Source of the DNA: Chloroflexota bacterium
Lineage (GTDB): Bacteria > Chloroflexota > UBA6077 > FW602-bin22 > JAMCYS01
NCBI GenBank assembly: GCA_023473795.1
Contig: JAMCYS010000088.1
Location: 1-52,847 of the forward strand
Reading direction: 5' to 3'
Length of the DNA: 52,847 bases
How positions within the stretch are numbered: the stretch's first letter is position 1; the number at the start of each line of letters is the position of its first letter. Below, in pieces: positions 3,806 through 7,212 of the stretch. The position numbers and the translations under genes are program-made. The notes beneath the pieces were generated by a model, which saw only the letters and a list, made by a program, of their open reading frames with translations, was not told the DNA's origin and did not search any database.

Positions 3806-5191
3806 CTAGGTCGGAATGCCGTACTCACGCATCTTGGCATAGAGCAGGCGGCGGTAGATGCCCAGCAGCTTAGCCGCCTGGCTGCGATTGCCCTGGGCCT
3901 GGTTCAGGGCCTCCATGATCAGCTGCCGCTCCACCTCCGAGAGTACTTCCTTTAGTGGCACCTGCTGGTGCACCTTCTCCTCGATATTGACGAAGCGCCG
4001 CTCCGTCACTGGCGAGAGCACCAGGTGCCGGCTCGTGATCACGTCTCCCTGCGCCAGCACCACCGCCCGCTCGATCGCGTTCTCGAGCTCGCGCACGTTG
4101 CCCGGCCAGTCGTGGCGCTGCAGCACCTGCATGGCTTCCTCGGTGATCTTAGCCGGGGGGCTGTCCGGGCCAAAGCGATGCTTGTGCAGGAAGTGCTCCG
4201 TCAGGAGCTGGATATCGTCCTTGCGGTCGCGCAACGGCGGCAAATGGAGGTGGATGACGTTCAGGCGATAGAAAAGGTCCTCGCGAAAACGGCCTGCCGC
4301 CACCTCGTCGGCCAGGTTCTTGTTCGTCGCCGTCACCACGCGCGTATCCACCTTTACCGAAACGGTGCCACCCACGCGCTCGAACTCCTTCTCCTGCAGC
4401 ACCCGCAACAACTTCTTCTGCGTGCCCAGCGTCATCTCGCCGATCTCATCCAGGAAGATGGTGCCCTTGTGGGCCAGCTCGAAGCGCCCTTTGCGCTGCA
4501 CCAAGGCACCGGTGAAAGACCCCTTCTCATGGCCGAAGAGCTCGCTCTCCAGCAAGGTCTCAGGCAAGGCGGCACAGGCCACCTTGATCAGCGGACCCGT
4601 GCGGTAGTTGGAGTTGGCGTGGATCGTCTCCGCCACCAGCTCCTTGCCGGTGCCTGTCTCGCCCGTGATCAGGACGGTGGCTTCGCTGCGCGCCACCCGG
4701 CCGATGGTCTTGTAGACCTCCAGCATGTTGGCACTGCGGCCCACGATCCGCTCGCTGGGGTCGCGCGCGTCCAGCTGGTTGCGCAGCGCCTTGACCTCCG
4801 TGCTGAGCTCCTGGTACTCGAAGTAACGGTTGATCGTCAGCAGAACATCTTCGAGGTCGAACGGCTTCGCGATGTAGTCGTAGGCGCCCAGTTGGATCGC
4901 CTTGATGGCGAGACTGGAGCTGCCGAAGGCGGTCATCAGCAGCGTGGGCACCTCCAGCCTCTGGTCTTTCAGCCGCTGCAGCACTTCCATGCCGCTGAGC
5001 TCCGGCATGCGGATGTCCATCAGCAGCAAGTCAGGCTTGTTCTCCTCGTCGATGGACTTCAGCACTTCGCGGCCCGTGCGCGCCTCGAAGATGGTGAAAC
5101 CCTCGTTCTCCAGGAAGCTGCGCAGAAGCGCACGGATGGTAGGATCGTCGTCCGCCACCATGATCTGCTTGCTCGCCGGTTCTTGCCCCAT
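3806..5191 (-). CDS. NtrC-family sigma-54-dependent response regulator
   Basis: 461 residues in three domains. The receiver (about 8-125) has Asp14/15, phosphoacceptor Asp59 and Lys109. The AAA+ domain (about 148-385) has Walker A GETGTGKE at 177-184, the sigma-54 contact loop GSFTGA at 224-229 (a variant of GAFTGA) and Walker B TIFLDE at 244-249. A Fis-type helix-turn-helix ends the protein (NRSQAAKLLGI). It should activate sigma-54 promoters when phosphorylated. The frame is open upstream to 5293, but ATG 5191 with GAGGGGAG and alignment to the family favour the shorter form. No sensor kinase is adjacent. Candidate targets are the boxes at 5296-5299 and 5828-5863. Confidence 0.93.
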   Translation of the reverse strand: MGQEPASKQIMVADDDPTIRALLRSFLENEGFTIFEARTGREVLKSIDEENKPDLLLMDIRMPELSGMEVLQRLKDQRLEVPTLLMTAFGSSSLAIKAIQLGAYDYIAKPFDLEDVLLTINRYFEYQELSTEVKALRNQLDARDPSERIVGRSANMLEVYKTIGRVARSEATVLITGETGTGKELVAETIHANSNYRTGPLIKVACAALPETLLESELFGHEKGSFTGALVQRKGRFELAHKGTIFLDEIGEMTLGTQKKLLRVLQEKEFERVGGTVSVKVDTRVVTATNKNLADEVAAGRFREDLFYRLNVIHLHLPPLRDRKDDIQLLTEHFLHKHRFGPDSPPAKITEEAMQVLQRHDWPGNVRELENAIERAVVLAQGDVITSRHLVLSPVTERRFVNIEEKVHQQVPLKEVLSEVERQLIMEALNQAQGNRSQAAKLLGIYRRLLYAKMREYGIPT

Positions 5192-5263
5192 CAGCGCACT
5201 CCCCTCACTGCCAGACTGATAAACGCAATCGGTACCTGACCGAGCGAACTCGTGTCTAGCAAG

Positions 5264-5293
5264 ATTATAGAAGAAGGCGGGGGTGAACGCCAA
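5264..5293 (-). promoter_or_regulatory. Sigma-70 promoter of the NtrC-type regulator
   Basis: On the minus strand the -35 is TTGGCG (5288-5293), the spacer is 18 bases and the -10 is a perfect TATAAT (5264-5269). The leader to ATG 5191 is about 65 bases. The 10-base box ACCGTACACT (5293-5302 on plus) directly abuts the -35. Confidence 0.6.
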
Positions 5294-5302
5294 CCGTACA
5301 CT
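5293..5302. promoter_or_regulatory. GTAC box next to the regulator promoter
   Basis: ACCGTACACT, identical to the ten bases at 5836-5845 inside the upstream array. Its position against the -35 suggests autoregulation of the NtrC-type gene. Confidence 0.45.
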
Positions 5303-5502
5303 CCGCGACGCGCGCCGTCCTCAGGCTTGACCTCGCTCGTGCAGGCCCGTGGCCTGTCGGGGCAGCTCAGCGGGATAAGGCACCGACAAGCCGCTGCCGG
5401 CTGCACAAGCCAATCATATCACGACCGGCCCCGCCCTCTGCGCCCGCGGGCGAGGCCCGTTCTGCTCTGCCAGCCAGGCGCAGGCGGCACTTTAAAAGCA
5501 TT

Positions 5503-5533
5503 GGGGCACTTGGCGGCTGGAACCAAGTGCCCC
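5503..5533. repeat. Perfect hairpin, 11-base arms
   Basis: GGGGCACTTGG (5503-5513) and CCAAGTGCCCC (5523-5533) around a 9-base loop. It is followed at once by TTGCT and the AAAGGAGG of the mini-ORF. It may be a terminator or a leader structure. Confidence 0.55.
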
Positions 5534-5551
5534 TTGCTAAAGGAGGAAAAA

Positions 5552-5578
5552 GTGGGGATGAGGCAACTCGCGTTGTGA
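5552..5578 (+). CDS. Possible 8-codon leader peptide
   Basis: AAAGGAGG (5539-5546) is followed five bases later by GTG, then seven more sense codons (Gly-Met-Arg-Gln-Leu-Ala-Leu) and TGA. An in-frame ATG lies two codons in. The ribosome site is one of the best in the window, yet the frame is tiny and is flanked by hairpins at 5503-5533 and 5607-5630. It could be a leader peptide or chance. Nothing downstream for 480 bases obviously depends on it. Confidence 0.2.
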   Translation: MGMRQLAL

Positions 5579-5606
5579 AAAGTGCTTGGCGCCCCAGGCG
5601 CCTCCG

Positions 5607-5630
5607 CGCTTCCTTATACAGCAGGAAGCG
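5607..5630. repeat. Perfect hairpin, 8-base arms
   Basis: CGCTTCCT (5607-5614) and AGGAAGCG (5623-5630) around TATACAGC. Follows the mini-ORF by about 30 bases. Confidence 0.4.
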
Positions 5631-5821
5631 TGCCAACGTTTCGCCCTGCCGCAATGCCACCGCCATAGTAAGCGGCCCGCGGGCCTTGAGGTGGCGTCCG
5701 GCGGGCCACAGGGTCTGAAACCGGCCGGCGGAGCCCGTTTCCGGCTCCGGCGCCCTCGCTGGTCGTCGCCAGGCGGGCCCGCGGCGGCTGGCTGCGTCCC
5801 GTTTGCCGGCAACCCGCCGGC

Positions 5822-5869
5822 CCCGCTGTACGCCCACCGTACACTAGCGTACGTCAGCCGTACAGCGGG
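5822..5869. promoter_or_regulatory. Array of four helically phased GTAC boxes (candidate activator site)
   Basis: GTAC occurs at 5828-5831, 5839-5842, 5849-5852 and 5860-5863, that is at spacings of 11, 10 and 11 bases, one DNA turn each. The outer boxes lie in a perfect 11-base inverted repeat (CCCGCTGTACG / CGTACAGCGGG). It stands about 115-140 bases upstream of a -24/-12 promoter, the normal place for an NtrC-type enhancer. Confidence 0.55.
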
Positions 5870-5957
5870 CGACCACGCCAGGGCCGTGCTTGGCTACCCG
5901 GGCTCATCTGTCGAGCGGGTAGGAACGCCACGTCGCCTGCCTGAGGTCCGAGCGAAG

Positions 5958-5974
5958 TTGGCACGCTTCCTGCG
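5958..5974 (+). promoter_or_regulatory. Candidate sigma-54 (-24/-12) promoter of the response regulator
   Basis: TTGGCACG-CTTC-CTGCG. The -24 GG (5960-5961) and -12 GC (5972-5973) are separated by exactly 10 bases, as the consensus requires. The -24 half is perfect, while the -12 half keeps only the TGC core. The start would be near 5985, giving a leader of about 80 bases to ATG 6065. Confidence 0.5.
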
Positions 5975-6064
5975 CTGTTCCTTGCTAGAGGCCGGACAAG
6001 CACATTCAGCCGCCATAGTTGGCTTGCGGGGGAGGGTCCGGCGCGGAGGATCTGGAGGGGGCAT

Positions 6065-6457
6065 ATGCTGAACGGCCACGGAAAAGTCCTGGTTGTCGAC
6101 GACGATCCCTTCATTCGCAGCCTGCTGGCGGCTTGGCTGCAGGAGGCGGGATACGGGGTAGTGATGGCCGCGGACGGCCAACAGGCGCTCGAGCGCGTGC
6201 GGGAGGACCGACCGGACATCATCCTGCTAGATTTGACTATGCCACGTCTCGACGGCTACGCCGTGGTCCGCTGGCTGCGCCAGCGCCCGGAGACACGCGG
6301 CCTGCCCATCCTGGTCGTCTCGGCCGACGTACGCGCCCACCAGAAGCTCGCGGGGCTGCGGGTAGAGGGCATTCTCAGCAAGCCGTTCGACCTGGACGAG
6401 GTGCTAGATAGGGTCCAGGAGTACGTGCCGCGACATACCACCAAAGCCGCCGTCTAG
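6065..6457 (+). CDS. Single-domain response regulator (CheY-like receiver)
   Basis: 130 residues, a receiver domain alone: acidic pair Asp12/13, phosphoacceptor Asp56 in DIILLDLTMP, a Ser near 86 in the switch position and Lys106 in LSKPFD. It has no output domain, so it probably works by protein contact or phosphotransfer. The ribosome site is GGAGGGGG six bases from ATG. It is divergent from the NtrC-type regulator and preceded by a candidate sigma-54 promoter, so it is a likely target of that activator. Its TAG overlaps the TAG of the convergent DUF72 gene within the four bases CTAG. Confidence 0.92.
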   Translation: MLNGHGKVLVVDDDPFIRSLLAAWLQEAGYGVVMAADGQQALERVREDRPDIILLDLTMPRLDGYAVVRWLRQRPETRGLPILVVSADVRAHQKLAGLRVEGILSKPFDLDEVLDRVQEYVPRHTTKAAV

Positions 6458-7212
6458 CCTACGGCAGAGCCCACCAGGGCCGCCCGCAGAGCCAGGGCAT
6501 CGCGCACCGCTTGTGCCTCAGCGTCGTTATTGAAGTAGGCGAAGACATCTCGCCCACCGTCGCTGAGGTTCTTTATTGCCTCGACCCACGGCGCCAGCCC
6601 GCCCGCCCCGTACTCGCCCACGTACCTGCCGCTGGCGCCGTGGAAGCGTAGATAGGCGAAGGGCGCCGTCACCACGAGCGGCGATTCCAGGCGTGGGTAG
6701 TCATGCGTGCAGAAGGCCACCCCCCACGTCGCCAGCAGGTCGTAAACCGGCTCGGCGTACCAGCTGGCATCCCGGAACTCCACCGCATAGCGCCATCCGG
6801 GCGGCAGTGCGGCCAGGAACCGCCCCAGCAGCTCGTCGTCACGGCGCAGGCCAGGCGGCAGCTGGCAGAGAATCGGCCCTAGCTTGTCGCCCAGGAGCGC
6901 GGCACGCCCCACGAACTGCGCCAGCGCCTCTTCGACGCCAACCAGGCGCCGGTAGTGGGTGATCAGCCGGCTCGCCTTAACGGCAAAGAGAAAACCCGGG
7001 GGCGTCTCCTCGTACCAGCGGCGTAGGGAGCTCTCGGAAGGCAAGCGGTAGAACGAGCCATTCAGCTCCACCGTCGAGAAGAAACCGGCGTAGTAGGCCA
7101 GCCAGCGGCCCTGCCCCAGCCCCGGCGGGTAGAAGCGGCCCCGCCAGTGGGCGTATGACCAGCCGGAGGTGCCAACCCAGGGATGGCCTTTGGACCGAGC
7201 AAGTTCGCCCAT
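6454..7212 (-). CDS. DUF72 (YecE-like) protein
   Basis: 252 residues with the DUF72 signatures: WVGTSGWSYAHW near the N-terminus, FYPPG, the NGSFYRLPSE segment, FAVKASRLITH, the YAVEFRDASW block and a late YLRFHG and YFNND. The family is a TIM-barrel of unknown biochemical role, with a length of 240-300 residues as here. GGAG lies six bases upstream of ATG 7212. It is divergent from the gamma-glutamyltransferase-like gene across only 49 bases, and its own first codons lie under that gene's promoter. Confidence 0.9.
   Translation of the reverse strand: MGELARSKGHPWVGTSGWSYAHWRGRFYPPGLGQGRWLAYYAGFFSTVELNGSFYRLPSESSLRRWYEETPPGFLFAVKASRLITHYRRLVGVEEALAQFVGRAALLGDKLGPILCQLPPGLRRDDELLGRFLAALPPGWRYAVEFRDASWYAEPVYDLLATWGVAFCTHDYPRLESPLVVTAPFAYLRFHGASGRYVGEYGAGGLAPWVEAIKNLSDGGRDVFAYFNNDAEAQAVRDALALRAALVGSAVG

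Follow-up and report, generated by a model that had tools for sequence, protein, structure and literature searches.

In the NtrC-glnA system of E. coli and Salmonella (glnAp1/glnAp2), paired 17-bp dyads lie ~100-150 bp upstream of a sigma-54 promoter of the -24/-12 type, and a dyad placed over the sigma-70 promoter represses; the NtrC consensus dyad has a 6-5-6 geometry and the skeleton TG.AC...GT.CA. In the LuxO-Qrr system of Vibrio, a phosphorylated NtrC-type regulator and sigma-54 make small RNAs (sRNAs), one of which adjoins the regulator gene. Here we analyze a 52,847-nucleotide stretch of DNA from a Chloroflexota bacterium (the window; GenBank assembly GCA_023473795.1, contig JAMCYS010000088.1), in which the genes of an NtrC-type activator and of a divergent response regulator are separated by what is, judged from its sequence, a real sigma-54 control region with two promoters, one of them predicted to make an sRNA.

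The window resembles the glnA system in having paired dyads upstream of a -24/-12 promoter and a further dyad over a sigma-70 promoter, yet it differs in the dyads themselves (TGTACG/CGTACA compared with TGCACC/GGTGCA), in having two divergent sigma-54 outputs of which one is an sRNA, and in a protein that falls below the NCBIfam cut-offs for NtrC (455 against 558.6), AtoC (529.8 against 714) and ZraR (391.8 against 760). As in the LuxO-Qrr system, the predicted sRNA is under sigma-54 and adjoins an NtrC-type regulator gene, whereas it has no Qrr match in Rfam and carries an anti-Shine-Dalgarno segment and an invariant loop. In Sinorhizobium meliloti the NtrC-type regulator of NtrBC is tied to NfeR1 (alpha-r14), a trans-acting sRNA with anti-Shine-Dalgarno seeds (PMC10746234); the window also combines an NtrC-type regulator with an anti-Shine-Dalgarno sRNA, but the sRNA of the window is served by a -24/-12 promoter of its own and has a single terminator hairpin. 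Each genome of Chlamydia, with CtcC, and of Borrelia, with Rrp2, encodes a single sigma-54 and a single activator (PMC3162934). The genome of the window likewise has one of each, but it is a 4.4-Mb genome with dozens of candidate promoters, its activator has a helix-turn-helix (HTH) domain, which CtcC does not, and where Borrelia has rpoS it has two sigma-70-family sigma genes among the outputs. Within the Chloroflexota, a literature survey reports sigma-54 in some members only.

Results

The window corresponds to contig C43 in a genome of 4.44 Mb (the home genome; 170 contigs, 96% complete), and the comparison sets were 29 genomes of its class and 400 genomes of its phylum. Two copies of GTTGGCACGCTTCCTGC, identical at 17 of 17 positions, lie on opposite strands between the two regulator genes (Table 1). 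Both have the form TTGGCACG-N4-CTGC with ten bases between GG and GC, the -12 element being CTGC and not the consensus TTGC. The first-pass annotation of this DNA had described the plus-strand copy with exactly this spacing, and that description holds; the response regulator is the first gene past it. What it had called a complete sigma-54 circuit was nonetheless incomplete, because the second, divergent promoter and its sRNA had been missed, while the domains of the NtrC-type gene, the promoter and a box on the -35 element of the activator gene all stand.

Both partners that such promoters call for are present in the same genome. The gene rpoN, whose absence had been named as evidence against the circuit, occurs in one copy (domain search 3.7e-38; NCBIfam rpoN_sigma above cut-off). 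The activator has complete receiver, AAA+ and Fis-type HTH domains by Pfam search, which make it an NtrC-family bacterial enhancer-binding protein (bEBP), and on the strength of the only strong PF00158 match genome-wide (the other five are weak by score) it is the only clear bEBP of the genome. The solved proteins closest to it in sequence are NtrC-family regulators and LuxO, and its named nearest relatives come from a Chloroflexi metagenome-assembled genome (53% identity) and Oscillochloris (51%). Its sigma-54-contacting loop reads GSFTGA, GAFTGA being the motif tested for. Upstream of its gene, TTGGCG-N18-TATAAT is the sole sigma-70-type promoter found in 5180-6080. A GSFTSA loop was seen in the activators of six rpoN-bearing relatives, G001-G004, G008 and G009 (L202, L203, L204, L205, L207, L208).

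The minus-strand promoter faces the predicted sRNA gene, which has an anti-Shine-Dalgarno sequence, CCUCCUUU, in its core, a CAUCCCC segment and a terminator hairpin whose 11-bp stem is perfect. An RNA model, R1, built from four copies with a common hairpin loop and upstream segment (the window, G009, G008 and G003), gave seven strong matches in the class genomes, one each in G000, G001, G002, G003, G004, G008 and G009, at 74.8-98 bits, the next match standing at 36.5 bits. Three of the seven (G001, G002 and G004) lie outside the model, and the phylum-wide search returned the same seven (7/400); among the genomes searched, the family is confined to one order. In the seven-genome alignment 3 of 10 stem pairs are changed on both sides and 100% of cells are paired; the stem, as read from this alignment, covaries. 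All seven genomes have both rpoN and a bEBP, and a GG-N10-GC promoter lies upstream of every copy, its distance from the core being exactly 43 nt in four of them, 60 in the window and 92 in G008. Compared with shuffled flanks these promoter matches are individually rare, save the weaker ones of G004 and G002 (~1 in 80). The predicted sRNAs are 95-149 nt long, G009 excluded. The gene therefore has what is expected of a sigma-54-dependent sRNA gene, namely a -24/-12 promoter, a conserved non-coding RNA and a terminator. Rfam gave no match above gathering score, its best sub-threshold matches being unrelated, and judged by Rfam the sRNA would belong to an undescribed family.

In target prediction the activator's own ribosome-binding site ranks 6 of 262, which is only a lead since shuffled seeds come close to the best energies. 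A coding frame antisense to the sRNA (Shine-Dalgarno-like complement AAAGGAGG-N11-ATGAGG) was considered and rejected: the frames are unconserved and five of seven stop within 13 codons. A possible paralogue of the sRNA, L282 (G003:C4:131616-131682; 36.5 bits), has CATCCCC, the TTCCAGCCG loop and a T-rich tail.

Between the two promoters lies an array of four GTAC boxes, at 5828, 5839, 5849 and 5860, with the spacings of 11, 10 and 11 first described for it. This triple spacing is unique to the array within the window (2 overlapping matches; mean of shuffles 0.01). The claim that the array is a perfect inverted repeat was overstated, as its 24-nt halves are 79% complementary and a perfect match is limited to the outer 11-bp arms, CCCGCTGTACG/CGTACAGCGGG. 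The boxes had also been taken as sites for a hexamer; they read better as half-sites of two dimer dyads with NtrC geometry, TGTACG-CCCAC-CGTACA and CGTACG-TCAGC-CGTACA, two helical turns apart. With centres at ~-150 and ~-129 from the predicted start, these are 17-bp dyads in phase ~100-150 bp upstream, as in an NtrC-like enhancer, and the array is ~95-130 bp from the -24 element, slightly less than the 115-140 first given. The box ACCGTACACT does recur at 5293-5302, where it overlaps the TTGGCG (5293-5288) of the activator's promoter. In the 4.44 Mb, TGTACG-N5-CGTACA has one perfect match, at the array; dyads with at most one mismatch number six genome-wide, three of them within 600 bp of the locus. 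In G008 and G009 the promoters of the response regulator have elements in common whose arrangement differs from that of the window's dyads: AGTAC-N4-GTACT and GGCGCTTTC-N24-GAAAGCGC(C/T).

Table 1. Positions of the features described here. Unprefixed positions refer to the window; the promoters, dyad functions and sRNA are predictions.
Feature	Position	Strand	Details
sigma-54 activator (bEBP) gene	3809..5191	-	461 aa; ATG at 5191; PF00072, PF00158, PF02954
sigma-70 promoter of activator gene	5264..5293	-	10/12 matches; shuffles mean 0.1
Third dyad, TGAACG-CCAAC-CGTACA	5284..5300	.	1 mismatch; over activator's -35; proposed autorepression site
sRNA, ~116 nt	5494..5609	-	Predicted start 5609; T-run end 5494; R1 matches in 7 genomes; fold z -2.6
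sRNA terminator hairpin, loop TTCCAGCCG	5503..5533	-	TTTT at 5497-5494
Conserved sRNA segment GCCTCATCCCCACTTTTTCCTCCTTTAGC	5534..5568	-	Contains anti-Shine-Dalgarno CCTCCTTT; near-invariant in 7 genomes
Second -24/-12 promoter, GTTGGCACGCTTCCTGC	5621..5637	-	Predicted to drive the sRNA
GTAC array	5822..5869	.	Two dyads, centres 21 bp apart; proposed shared enhancer
Dyad TGTACGcccacCGTACA	5827-5843
Dyad CGTACGtcagcCGTACA	5848-5864
-24/-12 promoter, GTTGGCACGCTTCCTGC	5957..5973	+	Predicted start 5985
Stand-alone response regulator	6065..6457	+	130 aa; receiver only, PF00072
sigma-70-family sigma genes with -24/-12 promoters	L030:1278-2276; L073:247-1341	-; -
-24/-12-like elements at rpoN, relatives	L220:1851; L205:7943; L216:2352; L219:5036; L211:6814	+; +; -; -; -
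Promoter elements shared by G008 and G009	L207 upstream of 2250; L208 upstream of 10558	-; +

Exact TGGCACGNNNNYTGC sites number 50 in the home genome compared with 14 for the reversed control pattern. When the 50 sites were placed against the calls of a home-made gene caller, 42 were outside called genes and 38 lay at most ~335 nt upstream of a same-strand start. A similar excess is found in the rpoN-bearing genomes G007, G008 and G009, and none in the rpoN-less G005, G006, G010, G011 and G023. Several rpoN-bearing genomes, G001-G004 among them, show no excess of the exact pattern either, and the promoters there may differ or be few. By these counts the predicted sigma-54 regulon is larger, and the window forms one of its nodes. 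The first genes downstream in the home genome encode three KGG/LEA-like proteins, FtsH, a Lon-like protease, an M48 peptidase, small membrane DUF proteins, kinases and receivers, and also a citrate synthase, a tRNA synthetase and a cytochrome. Two sigma-70-family sigma factors are also among them, which suggests a sigma cascade. In G008 the corresponding genes include three BON proteins, FtsH, nitric oxide reductase and others; by BLAST the two regulons have few genes in common, and in the home genome no -24/-12 element lies near two other KGG loci.

None of the 29 class genomes has more than one activator; rpoN was found in 17 and together with a bEBP in 16. G013 and G017, both incomplete, have an activator and no rpoN by domain search, although a fragment adjoining the activator of G013 resembles rpoN; G022 has rpoN without an activator, and G020 and G021 have two rpoN genes each. 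In several relatives the rpoN and activator genes lie within a few kilobases of each other. Elements resembling -24/-12 promoters lie 5' of rpoN, or of the operon that holds it, in the home genome (L026:4632, minus strand) and in five relatives, which suggests autoactivation of sigma-54. The receiver-GGDEF gene adjoining rpoN in the home genome is also preceded by a -24/-12 promoter. Directly before rpoN in G001, G004 and G007 lies a small histidine kinase gene (L202:4195-4887, minus; L205:8014-8754, plus; L220:1975-2634, plus), whose product is a candidate partner of the activator.

Of the neighboring genes in the window, a DUF72 gene (6454-7212, minus) flanks the activator/sRNA region, as does a gene of 55% identity in G009 (L208:3783-4547, plus). 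A small DUF5670 membrane-protein gene (3620-3456, minus) has a one-mismatch -24/-12 element, TGGCGCGTCTCCTGC, at 3709-3695 (minus) with a predicted leader of ~63 nt, an element that on its own is no better than chance.

Discussion

The reading that we favor, with a probability of roughly two in three, is that region 5284-5985 is a self-control node, in which the sole bEBP of the genome acts as a repressor at its own basal promoter and, by looping, as the activator of two divergent sigma-54 promoters, one for the response regulator and one for the sRNA. The activator would be expressed at a low level from its sigma-70 promoter, and as the -35 element of that promoter is covered by one activator dyad, the activator may repress its own basal transcription. 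Once phosphorylated, it would assemble on the two adjacent dyads between the divergent genes and loop from there to both identical -24/-12 promoters, the right one giving the stand-alone response regulator and the left one an sRNA of ~116 nt that would terminate ahead of the activator gene, into which some read-through is possible. The sRNA probably pairs with mRNAs at their ribosome-binding sites and thereby represses translation.

Whether these matches could have arisen by chance in GC-rich sequence, the DNA between the divergent genes then being ordinary and not under sigma-54 control, has to be asked, as a scan of the window for -24/-12 elements with one mismatch gave 21 hits compared with 22 in shuffles, no better than chance. 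The two 17-mers are, however, exact and identical, exact sites are in genome-wide excess just upstream of genes, and promoter and sRNA are conserved together in seven genomes. These observations largely refute an origin by chance, to which we give almost no weight. It is also improbable, in our view, that the chief product of the left promoter is an activator mRNA with a long leader, the hairpin acting as an attenuator or leader element and not as the end of an sRNA. Such a leader would fit the window and G009, where the element has a sigma-54 promoter on one side and the activator gene on the other, all on one strand, but the copies of G001, G002, G004 and G008 lie elsewhere, with their own -24/-12 promoters and T-rich tails, and the activator's own sigma-70 promoter is downstream of the hairpin.

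Several observations weigh against the self-control node as a whole. On the sRNA side, the T-run of the terminator in the window is short (TTTT after AATGC), the -24/-12 promoter of G009 is ~260 nt above the sRNA core compared with 43-92 elsewhere, and in G001, G002 and G004 the sRNA is outside the examined neighborhood of the activator gene. As for the dyads, they are absent at the 41 other sigma-54 promoters examined in the genome, upstream of which no other shared motif rose above background, and none was found close to the genes of the activator, the response regulator or the sRNA in G008 and G009, two genomes in which the recognition helix of the activator is almost the same as in the window; a search of the relatives with relaxed dyads, and with the NtrC consensus too, gave none above chance. 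Another regulator could therefore own the dyads, adding a second signal to both sigma-54 promoters while the bEBP works without a specific site. We consider this possible but doubtful. Sole activators without specific sites are known: Chlamydia CtcC has no DNA-binding domain (PMC7482065), and the title of a study cited in PMC12472547 describes the activation by Borrelia Rrp2 as enhancer-independent. Against another owner of the dyads, the activator of the window has kept its Fis-type HTH, and the dyads are at -129/-150 of a sigma-54 start and over the activator's own -35. Their 6-5-6 geometry and TG.AC...GT.CA skeleton equal those of the NtrC consensus. Binding of the dyads by the window's activator, as the first-pass annotation proposed for the array, is thus plausible but unproven. 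Since they are at none of the other sigma-54 promoters examined, the dyads look like a local autoregulatory enhancer.

A wider and more tentative proposal, which we regard as a possibility that is not the likeliest outcome, is that sigma-54 and one phosphorylated activator run a general-stress regulon in this order as a counterpart of sigma-B or RpoS control. Such a regulon would comprise dozens of promoters (for KGG proteins, BON proteins, FtsH, Lon-like and M48 proteases, two sigma-70-family sigma genes and rpoN itself), the order-specific anti-Shine-Dalgarno sRNA would form its repressing arm, and enhancers would serve only for self-control. Sigma-54 of the Chloroflexota is hardly described, and the literature searched gave almost nothing on it. 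A lineage in which sigma-54 and its activator are each single and the promoters can be read makes it directly testable how one activator may serve many promoters without obvious enhancers; an apparently uncatalogued sRNA family is tied to this sole-activator system.
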